Positions 7,879-24,249 of a stretch of 64,000 nucleotides of DNA are shown in pieces. Both the position numbers and the translations under genes were made by a program. Location: NCBI GenBank assembly GCA_001485605.1, contig FAON01000009.1:124001-188000 (forward strand), in the 5' to 3' direction. The notes beneath the pieces were generated by a model. The model saw nothing but the letters and a program-made list of their open reading frames with translations. It had not been told where the DNA came from and did not search any database. Every line of letters starts with the position of its first letter. Position 1 is the first letter of the stretch. The DNA comes from Candidatus Kryptobacter tengchongensis (GTDB lineage: Bacteria > Bacteroidota > Ignavibacteria > Kryptoniales > Kryptoniaceae).

Positions 7879-9969
7879 ATGGGCAATGAAAAGTTAACTT
7901 CTTTCGGTCAATCAATACTTGAAGCCTTAAGCGATGTCGTGTTCGCAGTTGATTCAGATTACAATTTCATCTATATAACCCCATCTTGCTATCATATTAC
8001 TGGTTATACCGTTGACGAGTTCCTCAGCGGTCAAGTCAAAGCAAGAAAACTTGTCCATCCATCTGATTACTGGCGCCTTCTCAGGGCAAATTATCAAGCG
8101 TTCAAGACCGGGGAACTGCCAAGGGTTTCAGAATTTAGAATAATTAAAAAAGACGGCACTATAAGATGGGTAAGCATCTACTGGACAACGGTAAGAGACG
8201 AAACGGGATCATTAAAATATATTCAAGGCGTTATGCACGATATAACAGATAAAAAATTAACAGAAGAAAAACTTCAAAAAAGCCTAACCGAATTTAAAAT
8301 TCTTCATAGTTTCAGTTCCGAACTTTCATCGGCAATGACAATTGATGAAATTGCAAAAACAATATATGATCACATCACTCAATTAATCCCTGTTGATGGG
8401 TTTTTCATTGATATTTACGATGAGATGACCGAACAACTAAAAGGGCTTGCCCATGTTTATTCAATTCACGGAAGAAAAGTTATGATCTCATATCCAAATT
8501 ATAGATTTAATGTCAGATCGCACCGAATTTGGGAAAGTTTGATCTACGAAAAAAAGATAACATATGTGAAGTATTCAGGTAAAGATATTCCCCCACCTTT
8601 CAATCTCTTCATTGAAGAGGCACAAGAGGAAGGATACCTGTTAAGTGCACCTATGCTTTCACGAGGTAAAATTTTCGGAATCATGACAGCCCAGATAAAA
8701 TGGAAAGGCGAAATTGAAGAATATATACCCATCTTTGAACATATAGCGAATCAATCTGCTGTTGCAATTGAAAGAGTAAGATATTTCACAGAGCTTCAAG
8801 AATCGGAAAAATCCCTTCGCCAAGCGTATGAGGAATTGAAAAAAGCCCACCAACAGTTAATTCTTACTGAAAAAATGAGAACGCTTGGACAACTTGCGGG
8901 GGGAATTGCACATAACTTGAGCAATCTACTAAGCGCAATCCTCGGCAGAGCTCAACTTCTAAAAACAAAGATAACAGATGAAGCACTTTTAAGAGATCTT
9001 GAATTCATTGAAAAAGCAGGGCAAGATGCTGGAAAAATAATATCACGACTTCGTGAATTCTCAAAACCGAGAACCCATGTGACGCTCGTTCCACTTGATG
9101 TCGCAAATATAATTGAAGATGCACTTGAAATAACAAAATCAAAATGGAAAGATGAAGCAGAATTAAAGGGAATAAAATACGAAATCTCCAAAGATTTCCC
9201 AGAAGATAGATTAATGGCAATTACAAACAGCTCCGAATTAAGAGAAGCTCTTGTAAATATAATCATAAATGCAATTGAGGCAATGCCAGCTGGTGGGAAA
9301 TTGACGATTGGAATTTACAATGTTAACAGTGAAAAAGTTGCAATATATATCTCAGATACAGGTGTTGGTATGGATGCCGAAACCATGGCAAGAATTTTTG
9401 AACCCTTCTTCACAACAAAAGGAGAATACGGGACAGGTCTTGGTCTTTCAATAGCATATGAAATTATAAGAAGCCACAATGGAGAAATCTTCGTTGAAAG
9501 TGAGCTTGGAAAAGGTTCAAAATTTACAATAGTTCTGCCAGCAAGCAAACAAAAAGTTTCAGAGATCGTTCAAAAGAGCGAACTTAAAGAAAATGCTTTT
9601 AAATTGAGTGTTTTAATCGTTGATGACGACGAATCTGTGCTATACCTTTTAAAAGATGTTTTCTCAAACCTCGGCTATAGAATCTTTCCAGCTGAAAATG
9701 GTAAAAAAGCTCTTGAATACATTGACGCAGAAAAATTTGACCTCGTTATTACAGACCTCGCCCTGCCCGATGTAAACGGATGGGAAATTTCAAAAGCAAC
9801 AAAACAAAAAAACGACAAAATCCCTGTAATCATATTAACTGGCTGGGGAATTGATGTCCCAGAAGAAGAAGCGAAAAGAAGAGGCGCCGACTATATAATC
9901 ACAAAACCTTTTGACCTTGATGAACTTCTTCTGGTTGTTAACACAGCAGTTCAATCAATCAGCAAATAA
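7879..9969 (+). CDS. Hybrid sensor histidine kinase (PAS-GAF-HisKA-HATPase-REC)
   Basis: A 696-aa cytoplasmic hybrid kinase without membrane segments. A PAS domain spans about 10-130 and a GAF domain about 145-300. A short coiled coil leads to the HisKA domain with phospho-acceptor H345 (GGIAHNLSN). The ATPase domain has the N box (NIIINAIEA), G1 (SDTGVGMD), F box (EPFFTTK) and G2 (GTGLGLS). A C-terminal receiver follows with D626 and K676, so phosphate may pass internally and then to an HPt protein. The HPt gene at 23950-24249 is a candidate partner in this window. The 3' end overlaps the convergent UbiA-like gene by 19 nt. Confidence 0.93.
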   Translation: MGNEKLTSFGQSILEALSDVVFAVDSDYNFIYITPSCYHITGYTVDEFLSGQVKARKLVHPSDYWRLLRANYQAFKTGELPRVSEFRIIKKDGTIRWVSIYWTTVRDETGSLKYIQGVMHDITDKKLTEEKLQKSLTEFKILHSFSSELSSAMTIDEIAKTIYDHITQLIPVDGFFIDIYDEMTEQLKGLAHVYSIHGRKVMISYPNYRFNVRSHRIWESLIYEKKITYVKYSGKDIPPPFNLFIEEAQEEGYLLSAPMLSRGKIFGIMTAQIKWKGEIEEYIPIFEHIANQSAVAIERVRYFTELQESEKSLRQAYEELKKAHQQLILTEKMRTLGQLAGGIAHNLSNLLSAILGRAQLLKTKITDEALLRDLEFIEKAGQDAGKIISRLREFSKPRTHVTLVPLDVANIIEDALEITKSKWKDEAELKGIKYEISKDFPEDRLMAITNSSELREALVNIIINAIEAMPAGGKLTIGIYNVNSEKVAIYISDTGVGMDAETMARIFEPFFTTKGEYGTGLGLSIAYEIIRSHNGEIFVESELGKGSKFTIVLPASKQKVSEIVQKSELKENAFKLSVLIVDDDESVLYLLKDVFSNLGYRIFPAENGKKALEYIDAEKFDLVITDLALPDVNGWEISKATKQKNDKIPVIILTGWGIDVPEEEAKRRGADYIITKPFDLDELLLVVNTAVQSISK

Positions 9970-10844
9970 TTAACTGCGAGAATCCTGAAAAATAGATAGG
10001 AAGAAAGAATTATTGAATTTGTAAGATTTATGTTCATTATCGTCCTGTAATTTTGAAACTCCTTCTGAAGATGAAAATTTTTCTCAAATCTCTCAACCAC
10101 AAGGAAACCAATAAGAAAGTAAATGATAATACCAATTAGTTCATAAAGTGTGAATTTTCCAGCAATGACGATCGTTGCTATAAGACCTGAAATTGGAAGG
10201 ATTATTTTAACAAACCTGAAAACACCAACCAAACCAAGTTTCTCCACAAACAAGCCACCCGTTGGAATTGAATCTTCAGAGATTCTATAAACGAGAGAAA
10301 GAGTATAAAATCCTGCGACAAACCCTGCAGAAGAAACAGCCCCACCAAGATGAAATGGATTTAACAACCCTTTTAAATCAAATGCACAAACCCATCCAGC
10401 CAGAAACCCAAGCAAACCATAAGTTAAACCAAGAAATGAAATAGCATAAAATGGCCTTTTCTTTATGCCAGTTGATGGAAACGAAAAAAGGAAAAACAAA
10501 ATTGCAAAAGCAAGAACAATTGAGAAATACGAAATGTTAACTTTTGAAGCCCAATAAATCCCAACAAGAAGCAAAATAATTGAAGCCACAAGCGTAAACA
10601 CCGATGCTGGTTTTACACCCTTAAACCCATATATCACCCCTTTCCTTTCGTCAAAATACGAATAAATTCCATTGCTTGCAGGATAAATCAAAAGATGCAA
10701 AATGATAATTCCATTGATAAAATTTCTACTTATATCCGCCTCTGTAAGCGCATATCCCCACAGAAAAACAGGTAAAAGTGCAATTGAGATGTTAAAACGA
10801 AGATGAAAAACTATGCTTTTAAAGCTGTAAAAAAACGCCTTCAT
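9951..10844 (-). CDS. UbiA-like prenyltransferase family membrane protein
   Basis: A 297-aa protein with about eight or nine membrane spans. The NGIYSYFDERKG segment near residue 58 is in the place of the first Asp-rich motif of UbiA prenyltransferases. YRISEDSIPTGG near 187 may be the second. Both are degenerate compared with classic DXXXD motifs, so the reaction (transfer of a prenyl chain to an aromatic or lipid acceptor) is uncertain. It lies 28 nt after the DUF2194 gene on the same strand and may be the last gene of the Pel-like operon, or merely follow it. Confidence 0.55.
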   Translation of the reverse strand: MKAFFYSFKSIVFHLRFNISIALLPVFLWGYALTEADISRNFINGIIILHLLIYPASNGIYSYFDERKGVIYGFKGVKPASVFTLVASIILLLVGIYWASKVNISYFSIVLAFAILFFLFSFPSTGIKKRPFYAISFLGLTYGLLGFLAGWVCAFDLKGLLNPFHLGGAVSSAGFVAGFYTLSLVYRISEDSIPTGGLFVEKLGLVGVFRFVKIILPISGLIATIVIAGKFTLYELIGIIIYFLIGFLVVERFEKNFHLQKEFQNYRTIMNINLTNSIILSSYLFFRILAVNYLLID

Positions 10845-10872
10845 TCCTTGTGTATTTTTGTTTTTGCTAATT

Positions 10873-12693
10873 TTAGTCCAACTTTAAAATAACTGATTCA
10901 TCCGTTGTTTTAAGAACTACTGTATTCGTGAAAATGCCTTGAGATGAGCAAACGATTTCAGCGTTAATGACCTCAAGGTTTTTATACTTTGTATCAATTT
11001 GAACATTGAGAAAAACATTTTTCTGGTTCGTATTTATTTTGATTTCATTATCACCAAATTCACATTTGATCTTCAAATTGTCAAATCTTTTCATCTCCTC
11101 ATATGCCTCTCTGCATGTCATGAACCTTATGAATGGGTAACTTTCAACAAAATCTTTTACCCAATTTTTAAATTTAAAATAAAGTCCTTCGTTGTTTCTC
11201 CCACGCCACGGGAGATAGAACCAATTTCTAACAAGCTCTGGGTTTTCAACCTCATCAGGGGTGTAAATTATATCATCGGGATGAACGAAGTGGGTCCAAA
11301 CGCCAAGCATTGCCATTTCACTTAGAATTAACATTTTCATATAATCATCAATTAAAAATCCAGCTGAAACCCTTGGGATACAGTAAAGTTTTTCATTCCA
11401 CGGTTCGGGACCAAATTCCCTATACTGTCCAACATCAAAAAAACCAGAATATAACCCCGCTATAACCTTTATTGATGGAAAAGTCTGAACTATCGCTTGA
11501 ACCCCTATTGAATCAATCCAGTTAGTCGGAGGTATATATGTTGTCGGCAAATCCCCGAGCCCTTCCTCTATCCACTTTCTTTGCACAAACTTTAACGCTT
11601 TCTTCATATTTTCAATCTCTCCCCATTCATCAATTAAAAGTGAATAATGATTATACCCGTGAAGCGCAAGTTCATTTTTCAGCTTAAATTGTTTTGCTAT
11701 TGATTTTGAAACTTCAACTTCTTTTCCAAGAACTCTCACCTTTCCTTCCCTCCATTCAGCCAAATGGAACGGCGGCTTAACATCTGCGCCATAATTAAAA
11801 ACAAGCCCAGCAGTATATTTCAACCCAAACTCATTTGCAAGCTTAACCATATCAGGATAAAAAACGAAAAAGTGAAATTCTGCCATTGTCATGTTAAACT
11901 CTTTCCATATAAGACTTCTCCTCACATTAAAAACGGGGGTTGGAAAATCATCAATGAAAATGACCGCGAAATTAGGAAATGGCTGAACAAATTTATCTGA
12001 AACCGACGCGACCGATTGGGTTATAAAGCCACGAAATAATTTATCTGAAAGAAGAGATGTATTCCAGTATATAACTTTCCCCGCTCCATACCTTAACATC
12101 CATATAACAGGAACCTTGGCGGATGTCATCGCAATTATATCCTTTGAACCGAAGTGGACAAAATCAAATAATGAGAGATCACGAAAAATTGAATCTGGGA
12201 TGATGGTGCCTTTGAGCATTGGCAAAAAATTAACATTAAAAACAAGACCTGAATTCCCTATTTTCAAAAATAAATTCTGCTTACCTCGCAATCTTACCCC
12301 GAAAAGATCTGATAAATTTTCATTATACCCACGATATATTATCGCAAGCCCTCCACCTGAAAAAACAAAATCTTTTATTCTCTCACAATCATCTCTTGAA
12401 AGCTTTTTTATAAATTCAGTCGCAAAGACAAGAGCATAATAATTCTGAAGTTTTTCAAATTTAACCTCTGGATAATCAACAAGGTCAATTTCATCATAAT
12501 TTAACTTTGCATATTTGAAAGCCCATTTAGCATTTTCAACACACTTAAGCGAATAAATATCTGAAGAATCATAAACCAAAAGAATTTTCTCCACTTCATC
12601 AATTGAAAAAAAGCTTTCAGTCCGTTGAACTTTACACGAGGCAAAGAGAAGAAATGTTAAAAAAGGGAGTATTTCAAAAAGATTTTTCCGCAT
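10873..12693 (-). CDS. DUF2194-type lipoprotein with polysaccharide-deacetylase-like domain
   Basis: A predicted lipoprotein of about 606 aa (hydrophobic leader ending FASC at residue 20). The N-terminal third resembles a flavodoxin/amidotransferase-like domain (ILLVYDSSD, FSGGGLAIIYRG). The second half has the metal-site pattern of NodB/CE4 deacetylases: DD (248-249), HGYNH (345-349), PPTNW (388-392) and a later HPDD. Its expected role is removing acetyl groups from an amino-sugar polymer in the cell envelope, as the deacetylase domain of PelA does in Pel systems. An ATG at 12717 would extend it but overlaps the upstream gene by 44 nt; ATG 12693 gives a proper leader. Deacetylase activity is inferred, not shown. 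Confidence 0.7.
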   Translation of the reverse strand: MRKNLFEILPFLTFLLFASCKVQRTESFFSIDEVEKILLVYDSSDIYSLKCVENAKWAFKYAKLNYDEIDLVDYPEVKFEKLQNYYALVFATEFIKKLSRDDCERIKDFVFSGGGLAIIYRGYNENLSDLFGVRLRGKQNLFLKIGNSGLVFNVNFLPMLKGTIIPDSIFRDLSLFDFVHFGSKDIIAMTSAKVPVIWMLRYGAGKVIYWNTSLLSDKLFRGFITQSVASVSDKFVQPFPNFAVIFIDDFPTPVFNVRRSLIWKEFNMTMAEFHFFVFYPDMVKLANEFGLKYTAGLVFNYGADVKPPFHLAEWREGKVRVLGKEVEVSKSIAKQFKLKNELALHGYNHYSLLIDEWGEIENMKKALKFVQRKWIEEGLGDLPTTYIPPTNWIDSIGVQAIVQTFPSIKVIAGLYSGFFDVGQYREFGPEPWNEKLYCIPRVSAGFLIDDYMKMLILSEMAMLGVWTHFVHPDDIIYTPDEVENPELVRNWFYLPWRGRNNEGLYFKFKNWVKDFVESYPFIRFMTCREAYEEMKRFDNLKIKCEFGDNEIKINTNQKNVFLNVQIDTKYKNLEVINAEIVCSSQGIFTNTVVLKTTDESVILKLD

Positions 12694-14767
12694 CTTCAAC
12701 AGTGCTGTAAAATTCAAAATGTTTCTCCGTCCTCGTTATCTCAAAAAGTTTCTTTATCCTTGGGCTAACATTTGCAAATTTTATCGCTCCACCCTTCTCC
12801 TTCACATTCCTATATGCGACAACAATTATCCCAAGCCCGGAACTATCAATGAAAGTGACATCAGAAAAATCAATGATTATATTCACTTTCCCCTTGTCAA
12901 TTAAACCTTTAAAAATATCCCTTGCCTGTATTGAGCTTGCAACATCAAGCTCACCTTTAAGCTTAACGATCACATAATTATTTTTCTCGCTGACTGTGTA
13001 CTCCATTCTCTTCTCCAGTTTTTTTGTTTTGATTCTTTCAATCCATTCAAGAAAGATGAAGCATTCTTCACATGAATAATCCCCATGAAACCTGCACATA
13101 ATTTCTGGTGATTGCCAACATCTCTTGAAATTCCCATCGTAAACAGGACATCTTGAACATACATCTTTTGGTTCACCTTTGAATTTCCAACATTCCTCAA
13201 TCCACCCAGTTCCGGCTTTCTCCCTCTTTTCACCCATAACTTCAAAAAAGGCAGAGACAACCTTCGGATCAAATTGTGCCCCTGTTCTTTGATTTATTTC
13301 AGATTCAATTTGAGAATAAGACATAGCTTTGCGAAGTTTGGAGTTTGAAGACACCTCAACGAAAAACTCACACAACCCCAAAATCCTTCCAAAAAGTGGT
13401 ATTTCATCACCTTTTAAACCTTGTGGAAATCCCCAGCCATCATACCATTCTTGATGCGTTCTTATTCCCTCAATTATATCCGATGAAATTGGCAGAATCT
13501 CCACCATGCTTGCACCAATCACTGGATGATTATAATCAGCCTGATAACCACCACCAACTTCAACAACTCCGCACATTCCAACATCGTGAATTAATCCGGC
13601 AATTTTAAGTTCACGAAGTTTCTCAGAATCAAACCCAAGCTTCTTACCTATTTCAACTGCAAGGTTTGCAACTCTATTTGAATGCCCAGCGGTGTATTCA
13701 CTTCTCATATCATAAGCCTCAGCAAGGGCGATAAGCGTTTTAAGGTAGCGATCTGTAAACTGGCTAAAAAGTTCAACATTGTGAATTACTATTTTTATCT
13801 GCTCAACAAATGTTGAGAGAATTTTTACGGTAAATTCATCAAATTGTTTTAACTTTTTAAAATTAACAAGTGAAAAGATCCCAAGAAGTTTCTTACCCTC
13901 AACAAGCGGAACACCGATTATTGAATTAACATTAAATTTCAAAAGAAATTCAAAATCACGAACTATCATCTCATCGCCATCCCCAAACCATTCAAAAAGT
14001 CCTGTGTCAGGCGAAAGGTCAAGTGAATTTATAAAATCATCCGACAAATTTTTGCTCGCTTTTATTCTCATTCTCTTAATTTTATCATCCCACATCGCAA
14101 CAAATCCAGCATCACTTCCAGTTGCAGTTATAGCAAGTTCAAGAAGAAGTCCAAGAAACCTATTCACCTCAAGAGCTGATCCAAGCATTTTTTTGCTTAC
14201 TTGAACCTGTGACTCAAGCAATCGCATTCTTGAACGAGTTTCCTCACCAAATTTTATCTGTTTTATTGCGACAGCACAAGCGTTTGAAAAATCCTTAAAC
14301 CAATTTGCAAGCTCCTTGCTCACAGGCTCGGGTTCGTGAGGTCCACTGAATAAATTCCCAACATACTCACCCGAAAGATAAAGCGGAATGTTAAGAAATT
14401 TCCCAGCCCATATGAGAACGAATCCAAAATTTTTATAGTCATCTCTAAAAACTATTTTTAATTCAGGTTCCCTAAGCGCTTCAACTATTTCTTCGTCAAG
14501 CTGAGCCATTCTTTCACTTCTCAATCTCATATTTTCAAGAATTAAACTCTGACTCGCCCCTGAGAAAGAATAAATGTAATAAGCTGGGCTTTTCACCACA
14601 CTTTCAAAAACATCAAAAATAAATTTAAAACCCTCAAAAGCTGGTTTCTCATAAAACCCAAATTTGCCAAATTCCTTCCATATATCAACAAGATTTTTCG
14701 TTTCAACGATCAAATGATAAACACTTTTCGCTGGGCTTTTCATTTTCCCAGTGATCTTTCCTATCAT
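12674..14767 (-). CDS. GAF / HD-GYP / Cys-rich / STAS fusion regulator
   Basis: A 697-aa multidomain signalling protein. A coiled region and a GAF domain (about 195-330) precede an HD-GYP domain (about 340-515) with H394-D395, HPVIG (H414) and THQEWYDGWGFP (438-449). The usual HHE..DG.GYP appears as HQE..DG.GFP, so c-di-GMP phosphodiesterase activity is likely but uncertain. Next comes a segment with seven cysteines (C526, C537, C540, C550, C558, C566, C569) and H561, a likely zinc or Fe-S site. The C-terminal STAS domain (589-697) holds D641-S642-S643-G644, where the first Ser is the phosphorylation site in SpoIIAA/RsbV. It overlaps the receiver gene stop by 4 nt. The STAS part is the expected partner of the kinase at 22773 and the phosphatase at 15146. 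Confidence 0.85.
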   Translation of the reverse strand: MIGKITGKMKSPAKSVYHLIVETKNLVDIWKEFGKFGFYEKPAFEGFKFIFDVFESVVKSPAYYIYSFSGASQSLILENMRLRSERMAQLDEEIVEALREPELKIVFRDDYKNFGFVLIWAGKFLNIPLYLSGEYVGNLFSGPHEPEPVSKELANWFKDFSNACAVAIKQIKFGEETRSRMRLLESQVQVSKKMLGSALEVNRFLGLLLELAITATGSDAGFVAMWDDKIKRMRIKASKNLSDDFINSLDLSPDTGLFEWFGDGDEMIVRDFEFLLKFNVNSIIGVPLVEGKKLLGIFSLVNFKKLKQFDEFTVKILSTFVEQIKIVIHNVELFSQFTDRYLKTLIALAEAYDMRSEYTAGHSNRVANLAVEIGKKLGFDSEKLRELKIAGLIHDVGMCGVVEVGGGYQADYNHPVIGASMVEILPISSDIIEGIRTHQEWYDGWGFPQGLKGDEIPLFGRILGLCEFFVEVSSNSKLRKAMSYSQIESEINQRTGAQFDPKVVSAFFEVMGEKREKAGTGWIEECWKFKGEPKDVCSRCPVYDGNFKRCWQSPEIMCRFHGDYSCEECFIFLEWIERIKTKKLEKRMEYTVSEKNNYVIVKLKGELDVASSIQARDIFKGLIDKGKVNIIIDFSDVTFIDSSGLGIIVVAYRNVKEKGGAIKFANVSPRIKKLFEITRTEKHFEFYSTVEDAEKSF

Positions 14768-15138
14768 TGCTCCTTATAAATTACTTTTTTAACTATCTCA
14801 GCTATCTCGGATGGGCTAAAAGGCTTCGGCACATACTCGTCTGCTCCAGAATCAAACATATCTTTTACCTCCGCCTCTTCACCTTTCGCAGTAAGCATAA
14901 CAATGTAAGAACCCTTAAGTTCAGGCTCCTTCCTTATCTCACGGCATACCTCAATCCCGTTTCTTCCAGGCATCATAACATCAAGGAAAATTAAATCTGG
15001 CTTCTCTTTTTTAATTATATCAATTGCATCGTCTCCATTATCAGCAATTAAAACATCAACATCAAACCTTCTCAAAACAAATTCAAGAAGACGCTGAACT
15101 GTTATATCATCATCAACAATTAAAATTTTCTTCGCCAT
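14764..15138 (-). CDS. Single-domain response regulator (REC)
   Basis: A 124-aa CheY-like receiver with the acidic pocket D9-D10, phospho-acceptor D53 (FLDVMMPG), T83 and K105. It has no output domain, so it acts through protein contacts. It sits 7 nt after the phosphatase gene and overlaps the HD-GYP-STAS gene by 4 nt. Its phosphate may come from the hybrid kinase or through the HPt protein at the head of the same operon; that link is inference. Confidence 0.92.
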   Translation of the reverse strand: MAKKILIVDDDITVQRLLEFVLRRFDVDVLIADNGDDAIDIIKKEKPDLIFLDVMMPGRNGIEVCREIRKEPELKGSYIVMLTAKGEEAEVKDMFDSGADEYVPKPFSPSEIAEIVKKVIYKEQ

Positions 15139-15145
15139 TTCAAAC

Positions 15146-16609
15146 CTAAATTTTCTTTAAAACAAGCAAAGTTATATCATCTCTTTGCTCAGCCCCACCC
15201 TTAAACTTCATAACCTCATCAACTATAACATTGCAAATTTCAAATGCGCTCTTATCGCAATTCTCATAAACGATCTCTTTTAACCTTTCAACACCAAAAA
15301 ATTCATCACTTTGACCTCTCATTTCAACTAAACCATCCGTGAAAATAATAACTATATCACCTTTTGAAAGTCTTATCTTATTAAACTCATAACTTTCATC
15401 TTCAAATAAGCCAATTGGAGAACCATGTGCTTCAAGTTCAAATATATTCCCATCATCTCGTTTGAAAAAAATCGGTGGAATGTGTCCAGCATTCCCATAA
15501 ACAAGCAAATCCTCTGGATAATATTCGCAAACAAAAAGAGTTGAATACATCCCCATTTCAAAAGTATCTTTATAAATTACCCTGTTTATAGCTTTCAAAA
15601 ACTCCGATATATTAGGCGTAAATTCATACATCAACCTTATCACACTCCTCAAACTTGACAGAAGAAGCGCAGCTCCAATTCCATGACCCGAAACATCCGC
15701 AATCAAAAACATCATTTTGCCTTTGTTAGAAATGAAATCGTAATAATCACCACCAACGCTTGAGCTTGGCTTTATAAAGGCATGAACATCAAGCCCCTCA
15801 AAATGTGGGATTTCCTTCGGAAGCAAATTCTCTTGAATTCGCCTCGCTATCTCAATCTCCTGTCTTAATACCTCAGCACGCTTTATCTCCTCAACCAACT
15901 TGTTTCTGTAAAGAATTATACCAGCATAATTTCCAAGTGTAAGAAGTAATTTCGCTTCAACTGTATCAAAGTTTCTCCCCTCACCGCAAACGAATATCCC
16001 ACCAACCGCACTATCCCCGGAAAACATCGGCACAGCAAGCAAACCACGCATTGAACCACCGCTATGAACTGAAGAAATGACGAAATTCTTATTTTCAATC
16101 GCTCTCTCAATTAATCTCCCAGCTTCAAGCCTTATTTCATCCGAAATTTCCCCACTTATATACTTTTGATTCAAAACATCACCCTCAAAAATCCCAACAA
16201 CACACGCTTTTGGATAAATCAGCGAATTTACCTTTTCTACAATTATTTTAACAATTTCAGCCTCATCAAAAACCAAACTCGCCTTCGCTATTATATCATA
16301 CACAATCCCAAGCTCTTCTTGTCTGTGTGCAAGCTCACGAACCAAATCTTCTATATAACCCTCATAATTCAAAAGTTCCGTATACAAAAACTTTAAAAGT
16401 TGAACCTCCCTCTCAAAATCTGCACTTGGCTTTATATAAAGATACATCGTGCCATAATTTGAATTCAATTCAACTCTAACTCCTCCTTCAAAATCTTCAT
16501 AATTTTTTGTTCTGGCAATCAACTTCCCTTCCTTATCAACAACTGCAAACTCTGAATTTGAAAACTGCGAAAATTTTTCAGTGTATATTTTAATTATACG
16601 CTCAATCAC
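15146..16609 (-). CDS. GAF-domain SpoIIE/RsbU-type PP2C phosphatase
   Basis: A 487-aa serine phosphatase. An N-terminal region and a GAF-type sensor domain (about 100-240) lead through a linker (about 240-262) to a PP2C-like SpoIIE domain (about 265-487) with the metal-binding GGDYYD (287-292), DVSGHG (305-310), TDGLVE (424-429) and RDDITLL (476-482). Family members dephosphorylate STAS-domain antagonists in partner switches. The STAS protein at 12674-14767 and the RsbW-like kinase at 22773-23180 in the same operon complete the set. The start overlaps the membrane-protein gene end by 8 nt. Confidence 0.9.
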   Translation of the reverse strand: MIERIIKIYTEKFSQFSNSEFAVVDKEGKLIARTKNYEDFEGGVRVELNSNYGTMYLYIKPSADFEREVQLLKFLYTELLNYEGYIEDLVRELAHRQEELGIVYDIIAKASLVFDEAEIVKIIVEKVNSLIYPKACVVGIFEGDVLNQKYISGEISDEIRLEAGRLIERAIENKNFVISSVHSGGSMRGLLAVPMFSGDSAVGGIFVCGEGRNFDTVEAKLLLTLGNYAGIILYRNKLVEEIKRAEVLRQEIEIARRIQENLLPKEIPHFEGLDVHAFIKPSSSVGGDYYDFISNKGKMMFLIADVSGHGIGAALLLSSLRSVIRLMYEFTPNISEFLKAINRVIYKDTFEMGMYSTLFVCEYYPEDLLVYGNAGHIPPIFFKRDDGNIFELEAHGSPIGLFEDESYEFNKIRLSKGDIVIIFTDGLVEMRGQSDEFFGVERLKEIVYENCDKSAFEICNVIVDEVMKFKGGAEQRDDITLLVLKKI

Positions 16610-18389
16610 TCTTCAATTTAGTTAATTTATAAACTTTGATATCACGACCATCAAAATAAATCTGCGAAGATCCATATTTGTAATTTAGACAAGCGGAATC
16701 AAGCATAAATTCCAAATTATCAATCCTCGGCAAAAAAGAAGGATGAATTTTATCAATTGAACTTTGCCTCGGGACAATAACATAAACGACATCGTAAACT
16801 TTCTCTATATCTTTAATTAAGATATAAATTTTCACGAAATAATCCCAATCCATAAACCAAGCCCAATTCTCAACCATGGCTTTACTCCCGCGATGCGAAA
16901 CTATCGCAAAAGAAAAAGGTAAAGATTCTTTTTGAATTTTTTGAATGACCTGAACAATTTCATCAGGTTCAATTCTGGACTCAACATTAGATCCACCATG
17001 AAGAAAAGCGTTTAAAATTAATAAAACAGTAACACATACCACAAAAACATCGTGAAAAATTTTCTTTCGTCCGAAAATTTTTCTGATGATGTAAGCAAGC
17101 CAGACAAACGAACTTATCAAAGTTATCGGATAAAAAAGTTCAAAAGATAAAAAACTCAAAAGACCTTTCTCGCTTGCTAATGTAAAAATTAACAAAAGAC
17201 AAAGAAAAATTCCATAGAAAACTTTAAAAGATTCAACCTCACCTTTAGCCCACAAAAAAACCTCAACAAGCAAAGTTAAAGCAATAAACAAAATAAAAAC
17301 ATTTAAAAAGTCAAACGAATACGCTATGACCTCCGAATTTGAAAGCAATGTATAAATTTTTATACCAAATTCTGGACTTAACCTTGAGTAAACTTCAAGT
17401 CCAAGAAGAAACAAAAGGATAAAAATTACAAATAAAATAAATTTAAACGCTCCCACCCTGTCCGATCTGAAACTCTCAAAAAATTTCTTAAAAAGTTCAC
17501 TCAAAACGACCAAAGTCGCCGTTGTAAAACCAACGAAAATGTCAACAAAAAAAGCGACAATTAAACCCAAAATCTTTTGAATTATACCAACATCACCCCA
17601 GAAACCAATCACCATAAGCAACCACCCAAGCCCAAGCAAAAAAGAACTACCCTCAATAGGATTTGAAACAAAATTCAAAATTGGAACAATGAAAGAGAAA
17701 AAAGAAACACTTAAAATCACGGAGAAAAAGTCATTGCTCAATTTATATGTCAAAAAAGAAACACCAGCGATCAAAATCGCAAAATTAAACGCACCAAATA
17801 AATGCAAAACAACATATTGATTCACTCCCAAAATCATAGAGAAAAAAGCACACAACGAGTTCACCCCAAAATTTTCAATACCATAACCGTAGTTGTTCAT
17901 AAGCATTGATGTGATTTTGACAAGATTGCTATGTTGTTCAATTGTAAAAAGAGAACGACTTTGAATTGCCATTTGCATCCACAAAAACAACCCCAAAGAG
18001 AAAATCAAAATGAAAGTAAAAATTTTAAAATTTAACCTTAAACTTACGCTTTTGAACTTGACATTTATAATCCCATCAAGAAAATCGTAAATTTTTTGAT
18101 TGATCCCGACTTTAAAAAAGTTGATTTTCATTCTCGCTTTCTTACTTGCTAAAAAGAAATCAACGCCAGCAATTAAAAGAAAAATTGAAAATATGAAGAA
18201 AACATCAAGTGCTTTTAACTTAACAGCAATGAAAAGGATAACAATTAAAATTGAAAGAAACCGATATAAACACTTTAAAAAACAACCCCAACCCACGCAC
18301 TCATCCCAGAATCTAAATTTCATCATAAGGTATGAGATGAGAGCAAGCCCGATGTAAAGCTTCGCTATGTAAGCAAAAACTTCAATCAT
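16602..18389 (-). CDS. Polytopic membrane protein of unknown function in the Pel-like operon
   Basis: About 595 aa and very hydrophobic, with more than ten predicted membrane spans in the first 480 residues and a soluble C-terminal domain of about 120 residues. I do not recognise the family with confidence. The layout (many spans, one extracytoplasmic C-terminal domain) is like GT-C glycosyltransferases or an uncharacterised polysaccharide membrane component, and it takes the place of PelD/PelE, which are absent. An ATG at 18419 would overlap the pelG-like gene by 29 nt; ATG 18389 directly follows that gene's TAA and is preferred. Confidence 0.6.
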   Translation of the reverse strand: MIEVFAYIAKLYIGLALISYLMMKFRFWDECVGWGCFLKCLYRFLSILIVILFIAVKLKALDVFFIFSIFLLIAGVDFFLASKKARMKINFFKVGINQKIYDFLDGIINVKFKSVSLRLNFKIFTFILIFSLGLFLWMQMAIQSRSLFTIEQHSNLVKITSMLMNNYGYGIENFGVNSLCAFFSMILGVNQYVVLHLFGAFNFAILIAGVSFLTYKLSNDFFSVILSVSFFSFIVPILNFVSNPIEGSSFLLGLGWLLMVIGFWGDVGIIQKILGLIVAFFVDIFVGFTTATLVVLSELFKKFFESFRSDRVGAFKFILFVIFILLFLLGLEVYSRLSPEFGIKIYTLLSNSEVIAYSFDFLNVFILFIALTLLVEVFLWAKGEVESFKVFYGIFLCLLLIFTLASEKGLLSFLSFELFYPITLISSFVWLAYIIRKIFGRKKIFHDVFVVCVTVLLILNAFLHGGSNVESRIEPDEIVQVIQKIQKESLPFSFAIVSHRGSKAMVENWAWFMDWDYFVKIYILIKDIEKVYDVVYVIVPRQSSIDKIHPSFLPRIDNLEFMLDSACLNYKYGSSQIYFDGRDIKVYKLTKLKSD

Positions 18390-18390
18390 T

Positions 18391-20025
18391 TTAAAACGCT
18401 GAATAATATTGATAATCAAGCGTGCGTATAAATTTTAACATATGATATGTTGAAATCATTGCGAAAGAAAATGAACCCGCAAGAAAGCCGATAACTCCAT
18501 ACTCCCAACTTATCAATCTGCTTGCGAAAAGCCCAACCACAAAGTCAACCACAATTGCAGTCCTTATCGCATTTAATCCAAAATTAGGCTTCCATAAGGT
18601 AAAGAAGAACAAATTATTCATTAAACCAATCGCAAGAAAAAGATAAGAAACGGAAGCAAAGTAATAAACTTTAAATGTGATAGGGCTTGCGAAAAACTCA
18701 CGAACTTCTTTTATGTGCCGATAGATGTCGCCAAGCCAAATTACAACCACATACACAACAATTATGCTTAACACTCCAAACAAGAGAAGAAAAGCAAACT
18801 TCATAAAATAGAAATCAAAATACCAAAAATTATACGATTTAATTTTAAAAGCCGAAAATTTCCTCTGAATGGGAATAAGTGACTCGGAAAAATCATTCAC
18901 CGCATATTCAAGCACAGCGAGCGTCAACCCAAATGAAAGCAAAGCCCAATCCATTCCAAGTTCATATGGAGTTCTAAACCAGAAGAAATAAAACTTCCCT
19001 TTTGAATAAGCAGTCCAAGAGATAATTCTATCAAGAAACAACAGCAAAAAATAATAAAACCCGAACTTAAAAAACGGACTATTCACATACGCAAGAACAG
19101 ACGGACGCTTCACTTTTAAGGAAACATAACCGAGCTTCCTTTCCTCTTTCTTTAATCTAAAAACATACCTCGCCCAGATATAGACTAACACATCAGCGAT
19201 GACTAAACCACAAATATGCGCCAAATGAATTGACAAAAATTTAAACTTGTGAAGATAAATAACGATAAATGTTCCAATTGAAAATATGACCGTGATTGAA
19301 ATTTTTCTCTTGGCGGAATAGAGCATAGATGTTGAAAGCCACAGAACCGAAAGAAGGAAATAATAGGCAAAAATTATGTAAATAAATTTTCTCGGAAAAA
19401 CTTCAAAGATAAAGTTGAGGAAAAGCAAAAGTAAAGCAACTAAAACTGTAAAAATTACACCATAATTAAAAATTTGAATTGCTATATCTCGCGCAGTTTT
19501 CTTGTTGCCCAAGCTTAAATAATATGTCACTTCTCTACCCATAACCTGTGTAAATCCACCCGTCGTTATGAAACTCAAAATCGTCCCAAAAGCAACTATC
19601 GTTGCCTGCAACTCACTGAACTTCACCCACGCCCAAAGTGAATAACCAGTAAAAGCAATAAATGCAATTTGCGTAGCTATTGGAAGCCCAAGTGCGAGTC
19701 CAGAAAAATAATGCTTGAAAAAGTTCCAAATCCTTTTACCAAACAAAATAAACTTGCTTTCCTTGCCCTTTCTATCTGATTTAACCCTTAACTTACAAAT
19801 TTTATAAACAGCTTCGCTTAGCTCAAATATATTCTTTTTTCCAAATTCAGCTGGGCAATCAACATGCCTGTATCCCAAGCTCTCAATAACAGCAGCAACT
19901 TGAAGAACGCTAACTGGGTTGCCAATTTTCTCAATGACTTCGTCCGCAACTATTTCAATTTTTCTTGCAAACTCAGATTTCTTAACATCGTCTTCAATAT
20001 GTTGAAGTGTAAATTTCCTTTTCAT
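18391..20025 (-). CDS. pelG: PelG-like polysaccharide exporter (MATE/MOP fold)
   Basis: A 544-aa protein with an N-terminal cytoplasmic extension of about 95 residues and then about 12 membrane spans. The spans have a MATE/Wzx-like pattern and the TTGGFTQVMGREVTYYL segment typical of PelG (the loop after the second to third span). PelG is the inner-membrane transporter working with PelF. Pseudomonas PelG is shorter (about 456 aa), so the N-terminal region is an addition. It overlaps the pelF-like gene by 32 nt, again as in pel operons where pelF and pelG are neighbours. The identity rests on fold, neighbour and motif, not on a search. Confidence 0.75.
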   Translation of the reverse strand: MKRKFTLQHIEDDVKKSEFARKIEIVADEVIEKIGNPVSVLQVAAVIESLGYRHVDCPAEFGKKNIFELSEAVYKICKLRVKSDRKGKESKFILFGKRIWNFFKHYFSGLALGLPIATQIAFIAFTGYSLWAWVKFSELQATIVAFGTILSFITTGGFTQVMGREVTYYLSLGNKKTARDIAIQIFNYGVIFTVLVALLLLFLNFIFEVFPRKFIYIIFAYYFLLSVLWLSTSMLYSAKRKISITVIFSIGTFIVIYLHKFKFLSIHLAHICGLVIADVLVYIWARYVFRLKKEERKLGYVSLKVKRPSVLAYVNSPFFKFGFYYFLLLFLDRIISWTAYSKGKFYFFWFRTPYELGMDWALLSFGLTLAVLEYAVNDFSESLIPIQRKFSAFKIKSYNFWYFDFYFMKFAFLLLFGVLSIIVVYVVVIWLGDIYRHIKEVREFFASPITFKVYYFASVSYLFLAIGLMNNLFFFTLWKPNFGLNAIRTAIVVDFVVGLFASRLISWEYGVIGFLAGSFSFAMISTYHMLKFIRTLDYQYYSAF

Positions 20026-21529
20026 CTTTCACATCTTTAAGCTGGATAAGTTCGTTATAAACTTTTTCATATTCCCCAACGCTAACATCAATTCTAAACT
20101 TTGCCAAAACTTCTTCCCTTGCTCTTCTTCCAAGCGTTTCACGAAGTTCGTGATCCGTTAAAAGTTTAATAACTCCCTCTGCAAGTGCTTTCGGATCCCG
20201 AGGCTTAACAATTATTCCAAACCCTTCAAGAGCTTCTCTCACACCGCCCACATCTGTTGCTACAACAGGTCTTGCGCACGCCATTGATTCAATCACAGTA
20301 TATGGGAAACCCTCGGATATACTTGAAAGTATTGAGATATCCCCCTCATTGTAAATTTCACTCGGCTTTGGATGATGTCCCGCAAGTATAAATGTATCCT
20401 CAAGTCTTAACTCCTTTATCAAAAGTTGACACTTTCTTGTATAAACTGGATCAGCATCAAGAGAACCATATACAATGAACTTAACATTTGGAATTGCCTC
20501 TCTCACAATTGCGCTTGCTTTTATCATCGTTTCAATATCTTTAAGTGGCATAATCCTTGCTGCTGCAACTACCGTTGGGAATCCGCTTGTTTTTTCTGGC
20601 TTCGGTTTAGGCTTAAAAACTTCGGGGTCAACACCATTATAGATAACTTTTATTTTACCTTCGTCAACTCCAAAAATTTTCTCCCATGTCGTATTAAATT
20701 TACACACTGGCAAGACTTTATCAGCAAGCTTATAAAGCATCTTTGAGACCAAAATTGAAAGATTTATCAAAAATTTTTTGGCAAAGAAACTTAAACTTTT
20801 CTCACTCCCAATTCCAATATATCTTTCCCTTGCGAAAACCCCGTGATCTGTCACGACAAGCGGAATCCCGCTTCTCATCTTTGCGACCACGCTCGGCAAC
20901 CCGCTAAAACCAGCTGCCGTCGCATGGCTTAAATCAACCTCCGGCACATCAACATAAAGTGGCATCAGGTAATGATAAAGCCACCTCATCGCAAGTGTTA
21001 AATCATAAACAGAAGGAACCTCATCCTCCCTGAGGAACTGATTTTCTTCAAGATATTTCAAAACAACTAACCTTTTAAATTCCTGCCATACAGCGAAACT
21101 TTTAAATGTTTGCTTATAATCATATTCGCTGAAATACCTGTGCATAAGCCATATATAACCCGCACATTCTTCAGGATCAGAAAATGGATTCATAAGAGAT
21201 GAAATAAACTCAATAAATATCGGGATAAATTTCCGAATGACAACCCTCTCGCTAACCTTCGTCTTTCTTATATAAATGCTTGAAAAAGGTATTTCAAAAA
21301 ATATATCTTCAAAGGGCTCCTCAGAACCCCATAACGGAATTTGACGAACTAACTTTACATTTGAAGGAAGTTTATACTTATATTCAACATAAGGCATTCC
21401 CGTTACAGCATAAATATAAAAATCAAAATCCTTTAAATTGTTCACAAGTATATCTGCCCATGTGCTCACTCCACCGCCAACAAATGGATAAGTTCCTTCA
21501 GTCTCAAAAAGAATTGCTTTTTTTCTCAT
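19994..21529 (-). CDS. pelF: PelF-like family 4 glycosyltransferase
   Basis: A 511-aa cytoplasmic GT-B enzyme with the PelF hallmark near its start (TEGTYPFVGGGVSTWADIL) and the long insertion between the first strands. Donor-site pieces are VIYNGVDPEVF (about 295), RIMPLKDIETMI, and the EX7E motif in EGFPYTVIE followed by RPVVATDVGG. Its length nearly equals P. aeruginosa PelF (about 507 aa), which uses UDP-GlcNAc to build Pel polysaccharide. Donor and product here are inferred. It is followed directly by the pelG-like gene. Confidence 0.82.
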   Translation of the reverse strand: MRKKAILFETEGTYPFVGGGVSTWADILVNNLKDFDFYIYAVTGMPYVEYKYKLPSNVKLVRQIPLWGSEEPFEDIFFEIPFSSIYIRKTKVSERVVIRKFIPIFIEFISSLMNPFSDPEECAGYIWLMHRYFSEYDYKQTFKSFAVWQEFKRLVVLKYLEENQFLREDEVPSVYDLTLAMRWLYHYLMPLYVDVPEVDLSHATAAGFSGLPSVVAKMRSGIPLVVTDHGVFARERYIGIGSEKSLSFFAKKFLINLSILVSKMLYKLADKVLPVCKFNTTWEKIFGVDEGKIKVIYNGVDPEVFKPKPKPEKTSGFPTVVAAARIMPLKDIETMIKASAIVREAIPNVKFIVYGSLDADPVYTRKCQLLIKELRLEDTFILAGHHPKPSEIYNEGDISILSSISEGFPYTVIESMACARPVVATDVGGVREALEGFGIIVKPRDPKALAEGVIKLLTDHELRETLGRRAREEVLAKFRIDVSVGEYEKVYNELIQLKDVKDEKEIYTSTY

Positions 21530-21580
21530 TTGATTTTATGTAATAAATTATCACACTCCCTCGGAATTAAACCATACTCT

Positions 21581-22780
21581 TCAAATAAAATTTGAATAAA
21601 TCTGCTCATAGCGTTTAATAAACCTCTCAACTGTAAATCTTTTTGCCTTTTTAACTCCATTCTCGGACAGTTTCCTCCACAGAATTTCATCATTTAAAAC
21701 TTTAACAACATTTTCAGCAAGTTTAATATAGTCACCGACCTCAAATAAAAATCCACATTCAATCCCACTTTCGCTAATAAGTTCTGGGACTCCACCAACA
21801 GATGTTGCAACCACTGGAACACCTGAAGCCATAGCTTCAAGAACTACAAAGGGTTGCCCCTCGCTTATGCTTGGCAAAACAAGAACATCCGTTATGTTAA
21901 GATAATCAATGCTGTCCGCTTCCCCGGTAAATGTTACCCTGCCGACGAGACCGAGTTCCTCAACCAATTTAAAACATTCACTCACATATTCAACATCCTG
22001 CGTTAAATCACCGATAATTAAGAAATTAACATTATTAACCTTCTCTAAAATTAAAGGCATCGCTTTTATAAATGTTTTAACATCCTTTATCCCTACTACC
22101 CTTCCGATAAAGCTAACGATTTTTCCAACTTTGCTCCCCCCAACGGTGGATTTAAAAAATTCAGGCTCAACAAAATTTTCAATAACATGAAATTTTGATC
22201 TTAAATCTTTCACCTCATCCCCCGAAATCAAACTCAACTGTTGCTCAAAATTATATCTGCAAACAGTTGTGATTACATCAGCACCAAGATAACATCTCCT
22301 TGCTATATCTTTGAAAATTTTTAAATACCCCCTTCTTTCAGTGCAAAGTTTTTCTTTCTCTTTTGAACTTTTGAAAATTTTAAAACCACATTCAACCTCA
22401 TCAACTCCAAATTCAATCTCCTTCCAATACAAACCATGTTCAGTTAAAATCAAAGGTTTCATTTTCATAGATTTCATCTGCAAGCCCAAAAGTCCTGCAA
22501 ATCCAGTTGACAAACTATGATAAACTTTTGCTTCGGGCACAATTTCAATCAGATCGCTAAAATCAAATCTAAACCCAAGTCCATTTAGCACATCTATTTC
22601 AACGATTGACTTAACATTTTCGGGAATTTCAAATTTAACATCTCTTTTCTCACCAGAATATAAATGAACGATTGAAAATTCAATGTGATTTAAATTCTTC
22701 ACAAGTGTATGCACCCACTTTGACACACCACCAATGGCATAAGGATATGTCCCCTCAAGTATCAAACAAACATCAACCAT
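21581..22780 (-). CDS. Second, shorter PelF-type glycosyltransferase
   Basis: A 399-aa GT4 enzyme that also begins with the PelF signature (LILEGTYPYAIGGVSKWVH) but lacks the long insertion of the 511-aa neighbour. The nucleotide-sugar site is intact: GRVVGIKDVKTFI, then SISEGQPFVVLEAMASGVPV with the EX7E pattern. It overlaps the RsbW-like gene by 8 nt and precedes the longer PelF by 51 nt. Two PelF-type enzymes in one operon suggest an alternating or modified polymer, or a priming and an elongating enzyme. This is inference. Confidence 0.82.
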   Translation of the reverse strand: MVDVCLILEGTYPYAIGGVSKWVHTLVKNLNHIEFSIVHLYSGEKRDVKFEIPENVKSIVEIDVLNGLGFRFDFSDLIEIVPEAKVYHSLSTGFAGLLGLQMKSMKMKPLILTEHGLYWKEIEFGVDEVECGFKIFKSSKEKEKLCTERRGYLKIFKDIARRCYLGADVITTVCRYNFEQQLSLISGDEVKDLRSKFHVIENFVEPEFFKSTVGGSKVGKIVSFIGRVVGIKDVKTFIKAMPLILEKVNNVNFLIIGDLTQDVEYVSECFKLVEELGLVGRVTFTGEADSIDYLNITDVLVLPSISEGQPFVVLEAMASGVPVVATSVGGVPELISESGIECGFLFEVGDYIKLAENVVKVLNDEILWRKLSENGVKKAKRFTVERFIKRYEQIYSNFI

Positions 22781-23180
22781 TTTTTTTCAGATACTTTGTT
22801 AAAATTACCTCCATTCCAGATTCATGAGAAAGTATATATTCAATTTTATCCATGATTTGGCTCGCAATATAAAGACCATAACCATGATCTGCAAGAACCT
22901 CCGGATCAGGCTCTTTAACTTTTTCCGGGGCAAACTTTTCACCGAAATCTCTTATTGAAATCTCAATCTTTTCATCGTTCACCCAAACCCTTATAACGAC
23001 ATCACCGTCATTCCCTTTATATGAATGCTTATAGATATTTGTAAGAATTTCACTCACAACAAGTTCAACATCGCCTGCGGTTTCATCCTCAACCCCATTT
23101 GATAGCAAAAAATCCTTTACCTTTGCCCTTAAATCGGAAATTTTCCCAATATCAAGCCTCTCTTTAATTTCCAGAGTCAT
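22773..23180 (-). CDS. RsbW/SpoIIAB-type anti-sigma-like serine kinase
   Basis: A 135-aa GHKL ATPase with no sensor or dimerisation domain, typical of RsbW-type switch kinases. The N box (SEILTNIYKHSY, N48), G1 box (RDFGEKF, 77-83) and G2 box (HGYGLYIA, 99-106) are seen. Such proteins phosphorylate a STAS-domain antagonist and otherwise bind a target, classically a sigma factor. No sigma factor is in the window, so the target may be an enzyme of the polysaccharide system. The ATG overlaps the GH114 gene by 4 nt. Confidence 0.88.
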   Translation of the reverse strand: MTLEIKERLDIGKISDLRAKVKDFLLSNGVEDETAGDVELVVSEILTNIYKHSYKGNDGDVVIRVWVNDEKIEISIRDFGEKFAPEKVKEPDPEVLADHGYGLYIASQIMDKIEYILSHESGMEVILTKYLKKNG

Positions 23181-23953
23181 CTATAAATTTTATTTAGTTC
23201 TATCGTTGACACATAGGGCGTAAATCCATAATATCGTGAAAGGTTCTTAACATAACTTCTTCTTTTATCATTTTCTGACAAAAAATCAAGCGTAAAAATT
23301 TTCTTACCCAAAGATTTCAAAATTTCAACCTTACTGGCATACTCCTTCTCAAACCTAACAAAGTATCTTTTCCTCTGAAAATCATACCTTGTAAAAAGCC
23401 CCTCAATCAAAAAGGCATCAACATAATTTTTTAATGTGTCAATTAAAGCCCAACCGTTGTTGGCAATGATAAATTTCCCTTTATTTTGCGCTTTCATCAG
23501 CCTTATCATATCAATCACCTTTTCCCTAAAATGCGGGAAAATTTGAACAATGTCTATCATATCAATGAAAAAGCCATCAAAATTCTTTGATATTATTTTC
23601 GGAATAATTTGATTGAAAATTAAATCCTGCCAGATATCAGATGTTATATCAACATAAAAATGATTTTCCCAATTTGGGTTCTTTCCAATTATCAAGGAAT
23701 CTGGGATGGAATAACCCCGATAGGTTTCAAATTCTGCTATGTTGATGTATGCTATTAAAATTACATCATATTCTTTAAACTTCGCTATTTCATCCGCTGT
23801 GTAATGGTCTGGGTCAAGGATTAAAAGTTCAAAACTTTCTATCTCATCTACTGATACCTTTGAATAACAAACAGCGTATTTTTTGATGTCCTCAATCTTT
23901 TTGTGTATATCGGAAGAAAAAACGAAGATAAGATAAAGTAAAAACAAAATCAT
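23177..23953 (-). CDS. GH114/TM1410-type endo-polygalactosaminidase-like protein
   Basis: A protein of about 258 aa with an N-terminal signal or anchor (MILFLLYLIFVFSS) and a TIM barrel of the TM1410/GH114 type. Family pieces are the YAVCYSKV strand, ILDPDHYTADEI, ILIAYINIAEFE, DGFFIDMIDIV (acidic active-site strand) and FIIANNGWALID. The hydrolase domain of PelA is of this family and cuts alpha-1,4-linked galactosaminoglycan. Here it is a separate gene, with the deacetylase-like DUF2194 at the other end of the operon. A TTG at 23962 is possible, but ATG 23953 gives a 4-nt ATGA overlap with the HPt gene and is preferred. Confidence 0.8.
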   Translation of the reverse strand: MILFLLYLIFVFSSDIHKKIEDIKKYAVCYSKVSVDEIESFELLILDPDHYTADEIAKFKEYDVILIAYINIAEFETYRGYSIPDSLIIGKNPNWENHFYVDITSDIWQDLIFNQIIPKIISKNFDGFFIDMIDIVQIFPHFREKVIDMIRLMKAQNKGKFIIANNGWALIDTLKNYVDAFLIEGLFTRYDFQRKRYFVRFEKEYASKVEILKSLGKKIFTLDFLSENDKRRSYVKNLSRYYGFTPYVSTIELNKIYR

Positions 23954-24249
23954 TCCGAGCAAATCTCCTGCTTTAATTTATCAATCAGGTTATGCAACTC
24001 TTGAACTAACTTTATAACTTCATCGCAAGAGTTCTGGATACATTTCTGCTCTATTTGAGATGAGATTTCTGTAATCCTTGAGAAGCCATATGATCCACCG
24101 GAACCTTTAAGTCGATGTGCGTATAGTTTAACTAAATCAAAATTTTTTAATTCAATTGCCTCCATCATCTGCTTTGCTTTCTTTTCTGCGATACTTAAAA
24201 AAATTTTCTGCAAGTTTTTTAAGTTAAAATCATCCGATGTAGCGCTCAT
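23950..24249 (-). CDS. HPt phosphotransfer protein
   Basis: A 99-aa helical protein with the HPt motif AHRLKGSGGSYGF (phospho-acceptor H45). It relays phosphate between hybrid kinases and receivers. It is the first gene of the Pel-like operon; the single-domain REC protein at 14764 (same operon) and the hybrid kinase ending at 9969 are possible partners. It begins at ATG 24249, 239 bp from the divergent T9SS gene. Confidence 0.85.
   Translation of the reverse strand: MSATSDDFNLKNLQKIFLSIAEKKAKQMMEAIELKNFDLVKLYAHRLKGSGGSYGFSRITEISSQIEQKCIQNSCDEVIKLVQELHNLIDKLKQEICSE

Follow-up and report, generated by a model that had tools for sequence, protein, structure and literature searches.

Gene content and organization of the operon

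The stretch of DNA analysed here (64,000 nucleotides of Candidatus Kryptobacter tengchongensis, assembly GCA_001485605.1, contig FAON01000009.1, positions 124,001 to 188,000; hereafter the window) carries on its minus strand, at 9951-24249, an operon that probably encodes a Pel-type exopolysaccharide machine and represents a distinct, phylum-wide variant of it. The host has its close kin in Candidatus Kryptonia, among them Kryptonium thompsonii, Chrysopegis kryptomonas and Thermokryptus. The initial annotation had described twelve packed genes at this place, and the 12 open reading frames (ORFs) are confirmed, with overlaps of 4, 4, 8, 8, 13, 29, 32 and 44 nt and gaps of 7, 28 and 51 nt at the gene junctions.

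The polysaccharide genes of the operon encode a GH114 protein with an N-terminal hydrophobic signal (23177..23962), two GT4 glycosyltransferases, PelF1 (21581..22780) and PelF2 (19994..21529), a PelG-like inner-membrane exporter (18391..20025), a polytopic membrane protein with a predicted GT-C fold (16602..18419) and a DUF2194 protein, which is a predicted lipoprotein (10873..12717). Mixed with them are the genes of an HPt phosphotransfer protein (23950..24249), an RsbW/SpoIIAB-type serine kinase (22773..23180), a GAF-SpoIIE phosphatase of the PP2C type (15146..16609), a single-domain response regulator (REC, 14764..15138) and a protein made of an N-domain, a GAF domain, a degenerate HD-GYP domain, an eight-Cys linker and a STAS domain (12674..14767). 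Family scans with Pfam and NCBIfam uphold most of the names given initially (HPt, GH114, RsbW-type HATPase, two PelF-type GT4 proteins, SpoIIE, REC, GAF-HD-GYP-STAS and DUF2194). The same list had not recognized the GH114 and DUF2194 proteins as pieces of PelA and had left the polytopic protein, now assigned a GT-C fold, as unknown. The last gene (9951..10844) encodes another polytopic membrane protein without family assignment, so far seen in Kryptonia only; its description as UbiA-like is not supported, since no Pfam family scores above its cut-off and no PDB relative is found by sequence.

Conservation within the genus and across the phylum

The gene order is the same in five other species of the genus, up to the contig ends, and HPt went undetected at the threshold in one of these five genomes. 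Of 395 genomes from the phylum, 12 have matches to a profile built on the polytopic protein and 27 to one built on the PelG-like exporter, compared with five in which the Pfam PelG model exceeds its cut-off. All five loci examined from the polytopic-protein profile are clusters with PelF1, PelF2, the PelG-like exporter, an HD-GYP-like protein, GH114 and DUF2194. The genes for PelF2, PelG, GH114, the polytopic protein and DUF2194 lie side by side in 21 of 22 distant loci, with GH114 split in one, and the 22nd locus is cut by the range examined. PelF1 and the HD-GYP protein occur in 18 of these 22, and four loci from two families consist of the five-gene core alone. RsbW, SpoIIE and STAS are found only in Kryptonia and in one member of the same class (G271), where STAS is a separate ORF; the other distant clusters have REC and REC-histidine-kinase genes. 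The sampled genomes place the variant in six families of the phylum. Full-length matches to the Pfam PelG model in this sample all come from such clusters, and the remaining matches are short fragments. The view that the locus is a distinct Pel variant with regulators in the operon is thus sustained by the order kept in the genus and by the clustering of the core in distant loci, and the genes are kept together in relatives rather than scattered. The further proposal, a variant of thermophilic bacteria of the Fibrobacteres-Chlorobi-Bacteroidetes group, was too narrow, as the clusters extend beyond the thermophilic genus.

A scan of contigs with the PelG alignment returned other Kryptonia only, its peptide patterns being too specific. 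Reference pel loci were obtained from a plasmid search with PelF1 as the query; the PelG-like query found no pel locus. A fusobacterial pel locus, on the Cetobacterium somerae plasmid NZ_CP143320.1, has the order GH114, a PelD-like GAF protein, DUF2194, a PelE-like protein, PelF and a PelG of 703 residues. In one genome (G390), the intact cluster is adjoined by another copy that is broken.

The PelF pair and the PelG-like exporter

PelF1 and PelF2 score 245 and 161 bits (1.2e-72 and 6.1e-47) with the NCBIfam PelF model, whose cut-off is 100; the next best models reach 121 and 113 bits, so that PelF models exceed every generic GT4 model. Profile alignment to reference PelF with hhalign gives 7e-67 and 3e-65, at a probability of 100%. 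The E-x7-E motif is intact in PelF1, and PelF2 is the best conserved protein of the operon, with 85-91% identity within the genus and ~50% in other families. Each of the two forms a monophyletic group across families (tree support 0.91 and 0.95), which indicates an old PelF1/PelF2 duplication.

The exporter matches the Pfam PelG model over its full length below threshold (E 0.0061, 15.9 bits, with a cut-off of 29). This is its only family match, and no competing MATE or Wzx family appeared in the scans. It is collinear with reference PelG (hhalign E 3.6e-4), and homologues of it exceed the PelG cut-off. The exporter is best regarded as a diverged PelG, a remote assignment backed by collinearity and context, and the earlier recognition of PelF beside PelG holds in this form. 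An extra N-terminal domain of ~90 residues (GNPxSVxAVAATIESLGxRxVD) is present on all PelG-like proteins of the variant, and most reference PelG proteins are without it.

Two proteins for the activities of PelA

The DUF2194 protein (Pfam DUF2194 5.5e-78) matches the solved structure of Bacillus cereus PelADA (9zau, E 2.5e-49), a de-N-acetylase that binds metal, acts on alpha-1,4-GalNAc oligomers and is needed for Pel (PMC13254593). The window protein and 21 distant homologues retain the motifs that form the base, metal ligands and acid of PelADA (IDDFP, HGYNH, PP, PR and HFVHPDD); the one substitution, within HGYNH, leaves both histidines in place. The GH114 protein (Pfam GH114 3.3e-18) finds its best PDB matches in PelA (9cgy, 6e-11; 5tcb, 7e-9). 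In the alignment, its Glu187 falls on the position where 5tcb and 5tsy carry different residues, and it is taken to be the catalytic glutamate, at the place of E218 in Pseudomonas aeruginosa PelA. By homology, PelA is present as two proteins, of which GH114 would be the hydrolase and DUF2194 the deacetylase; this split of hydrolase and deacetylase is the arrangement of Gram-positive pelDEADAFG loci (PMC7112168). In one Kryptonia species (G004, L023:12048-13892), two of the PelADA zinc ligands are gone (IDDFP to IDNFP, HGYNH to LGYNH) and the rest of the operon is intact; its polymer may stay acetylated.

The PelB-like barrel and the search for PelC, PelD and PelE

The initial annotation could recognize none of PelB, PelC, PelD and PelE. 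For the last three this remains true of the operon, and a PelB-like protein is encoded at another genomic site. The DUF2194 proteins of 21 distant loci reach lengths of 1264-1342 residues; in G271 the extra part has TPR repeats (2e-23) and a weak match to the PgaA barrel. The Kryptonia protein ends after the deacetylase part, and the host genome encodes outside the operon (C12:512821-514473) a TPR-barrel protein of 551 residues that is homologous over its length to the extra part of the DUF2194 fusions (E 4e-50). This protein is full length in all seven Kryptonia genomes (62-72%), while the sister family gives TPR matches only; against reference PelB, hhalign aligns the TPR part only (E 4.9e-4). 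The free-standing protein is likely the stand-in for PelB, judging by these homologies, and the fusion of deacetylase and barrel in relatives points to a coupling of modification with export. The genes around it (G000:C12:503000-522900) encode an MsbA-type ABC transporter, an O-antigen-ligase-like protein and glycosyltransferases.

No protein with the PelD layout of membrane helices, GAF and degenerate GGDEF was found in the operon or in the 22 distant clusters. Searches of the host genome with PF16963 and PF16933 returned nothing at 0.001, and with PF16963 the control gave no match either, which makes the genome-wide absence weaker. The HD-GYP protein was considered as a PelD homologue and rejected, its weak alignment being confined to the GAF region (E 0.11). 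The reference profile of PelE, with its membrane helices and TPR, aligns with neither the polytopic nor the HD-GYP protein, though a remote PelE elsewhere is possible. No operon protein fits the PelC lipoprotein, and the reference PelC profile matches neither the polytopic nor the HD-GYP protein; the genome was not searched with a PelC model.

The GT-C-fold protein

The polytopic protein is 43-57% identical across the genus and has no Pfam family, with one of 26 homologues touching DUF6541. Its profile matches neither PelD, PelE, PelB and PelC nor any PDB sequence. A first model of the window protein, from nine sequences, had low confidence (predicted local distance difference test, pLDDT, 57), and a homologue-led model on a 26-sequence alignment reached a pLDDT of 83 and a predicted template modelling score of 0.83. 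With the latter, the top Foldseek matches are OST, DPY19, ArnT, AftA and PMT, and a structural aligner gives Z scores of 21.2 for OST, 16.7 for PMT and 15.5 for ArnT; all through the list the chains are of GT-C type. With the window-protein model, the first 37 rows are all GT-C-type chains (Z 16.4 to 8.2), followed by a drop to 7.0. The matched region is ~130-480 in the window protein (Z 16) and ~133-659 in the homologue (Z 21). The GT-C fold is thus well supported by the predicted structures. The protein accompanies PelF, PelG and GH114 in all 22 distant loci and, on this conservation, is a core component of the variant that would stand in place of PelD/PelE.

What the protein does can be read in two ways. 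As a non-catalytic membrane scaffold it would do the job of PelD/PelE and assemble PelF and PelG, a reading that is plausible, if tentative. As an active enzyme, a possibility to be held with some doubt, it would add a polyprenyl-phosphate-borne sugar in the periplasm, so that the product would be branched or decorated and not plain Pel. Its best structural matches (OST, PMT, ArnT and AftA) are enzymes that use lipid-linked sugars, and its retention in every cluster examined would suit a catalytic part. Active GT-C enzymes are expected to have a catalytic acid in the first outer loop, yet no acid is conserved in this loop (alignment columns 199-210), D72 (window numbering) being the single nearly invariant acidic residue, and the operon shows no gene for a dedicated donor synthase. 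The loss of the usual acid favours a scaffold instead, as do the core position and constant presence of the protein where PelD and PelE are not found, together with the PelDEFG complex of P. aeruginosa (as cited in PMC12345266). A scaffold fits less well with the best conserved part of the protein, a C-terminal domain of extracytoplasmic type, which suggests substrate handling outside.

Control of the operon

The HD-GYP protein belongs to the classical phosphodiesterase family for cyclic di-GMP (c-di-GMP; HD_5 2.6e-24, Pfam) and has the sole HD-GYP (HD_5) domain of its genome. An ordinary c-di-GMP control, in which it would degrade or sense the messenger for the operon, is nonetheless improbable. 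The HD pair is kept, and Kryptonia may also retain the R and K of the base-binding region, but the positions of K225, H277, Y285 and D305 of PmGH are occupied by M, Q, F and E. Alanine at K225 or H277 abolished or strongly cut the activity of PmGH, while Y285 was dispensable (PMC4159591). EAL and PilZ domains were not found in the seven genomes searched, five of them Kryptonia, and the lone GGDEF-family protein of Kryptonia (G000:C7:143475-143903) is without the GGDEF motif in four species. Since the HD-GYP domain is degenerate and neither EAL, PilZ nor an intact GGDEF is detected, c-di-GMP control of the kind found in PelD systems appears unlikely in Kryptonia.

A partner-switching set is complete in the operon, with a serine kinase (HATPase_c_2, Pfam 2e-23; RsbW model 7.5e-18), a PP2C phosphatase (Pfam SpoIIE 7.1e-46) whose metal motifs GGDYYD, DVSGHG and RDDIT are intact, and a STAS domain that carries the phospho-site motif DSSGLG. 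The motifs of the phosphorelay proteins are likewise intact in HPt (Pfam Hpt 5.3e-11), whose histidine lies in HRLKGSGG, a motif kept in the genus, and in REC (Pfam Response_reg 1.3e-30). The 3' boundary of the operon lies 19 nt inside the gene of a convergent hybrid histidine kinase on the plus strand (7879..9969, PAS-GAF-HisKA-HATPase-REC by Pfam), which adjoins the operon in the four genus genomes whose contigs extend so far and is a candidate for the input of the HPt/REC relay. Because the active-site motifs of kinase, phosphatase, STAS, HPt and REC are all intact, the most likely control is a partner switch that receives its signal from a phosphorelay and acts on the STAS-HD-GYP protein, with a wiring deduced from gene content and from the fusion.

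Sets of RsbW, SpoIIE and STAS proteins usually control sigma factors, and these genes might merely ride in the operon while serving a sigma factor or the general stress response. In favour of this, most clusters of other families lack the set. This explanation is unlikely, however, as the genes are interleaved with the others through translational overlaps in an order kept in the genus, similar company is found, the STAS fusion aside, in another family of the same class, and STAS forms one protein with HD-GYP, which is itself present in most other clusters. Between HD-GYP and STAS lies a cysteine-rich linker (residues ~526-570, ~13030-13190 on the minus strand), whose eight cysteines are invariant in five aligned genus members and which is possibly a metal or redox site.

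Flanking features

Two adjacent type IX secretion cargo genes on the plus strand (24489-27173 and 27261-30029) have identical C-terminal ends of ~80 residues, which suggests that the sorting tail was recently duplicated or spread by gene conversion. An Rfam scan of the window gave no matches.

Comparison with known Pel systems

The operon shares with pelDEADAFG of B. cereus (PMC7112168, PMC13254593) a PelADA with a separate GH114-type hydrolase, PelF, PelG and a cluster without PelC. It differs in that PelD and PelE are not found, that it has a GT-C-fold core protein, two PelF proteins and a PelB-like barrel (fused to PelADA in relatives), and that c-di-GMP control is unlikely in Kryptonia. 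With pelABCDEFG of Pseudomonas it has in common PelF, PelG, the activities of PelA and a TPR-barrel protein; here PelA is split, PelC, PelD and PelE are not found, and GT-C-fold and pseudo-HD-GYP proteins are present instead. The cluster is classed with neither canonical type because PelD, PelE and c-di-GMP control were looked for and not found.

The nearest precedent in the literature covered is the Pel operon of sulfate reducers that are partners of anaerobic methanotrophic archaea (PMC10553843), which has no recognizable PelD and for which a transmembrane protein was proposed as the substitute. PelE is reported there, however. Streptococcus intermedius also makes Pel without c-di-GMP control (PMC12345266), but its locus keeps PelE and a PelD without GGDEF and has extra CotH-, polyphosphate- and MgtC-like genes. 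The polytopic protein resembles the GT-C enzymes (OST/STT3, PMT, ArnT and AftA) in the overall predicted fold and differs from them in having no sequence similarity to the solved families, an unconserved acid in the first loop and extra N-terminal membrane helices. In the literature covered, which left subscription papers and preprints aside, neither a GT-C-fold protein nor a PelADA-PelB fusion is described in Pel loci.

Proposed mechanism and significance

In the proposed mechanism, PelF1 and PelF2 would polymerise a nucleotide-sugar in the cytoplasm, UDP-GalNAc by analogy, and the product would be a Pel-like alpha-1,4 GalN/GalNAc polymer. The PelG-like exporter would move the chain over the inner membrane together with the GT-C-fold protein at the core position of PelD/PelE. 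In the periplasm, the PelADA lipoprotein would remove N-acetyl groups and GH114 would trim the chain, which the separately encoded PelB-like protein would release. The RsbW-type kinase would phosphorylate STAS and the SpoIIE phosphatase would reverse this, so that the pseudo-HD-GYP/GAF protein, and thereby the synthase, is likely switched; the balance of phosphatase and kinase is probably set by the relay of hybrid kinase, HPt and REC. The locus may then exemplify a second Pel architecture, in which the GT-C protein replaces PelD/PelE and, in Kryptonia, serine phosphorylation of STAS on a dead HD-GYP domain replaces c-di-GMP, although this fuller proposal is put forward tentatively.

Several observations weigh against this interpretation. 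The window PelG is below the family cut-off and its hhalign probability to reference PelG is just 37%. The gene of the PelB-like protein lies in another cluster, its link to the operon consisting of homology and of co-occurrence in one clade. The GT-C protein may not be an enzyme, as the usual acid of the first outer loop is missing, and the kinase-phosphatase-STAS set is limited to Kryptonia and one relative, other clusters using REC proteins.

Few biofilm polymers are as widespread as Pel, and PelE and the c-di-GMP receptor PelD were required for it in the bacteria tested in the work cited above. Clusters with PelF, PelG and both PelA activities but with a GT-C-fold protein raise the question of what role PelD/PelE plays. 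Surveys with PelA-G models would miss most such loci, given that the Pfam PelG model exceeds its cut-off in 5/395 genomes and the new profile has matches in 27/395. In cells that show no evident c-di-GMP signalling, a Pel machine would uncouple the synthesis of the polymer from that messenger.

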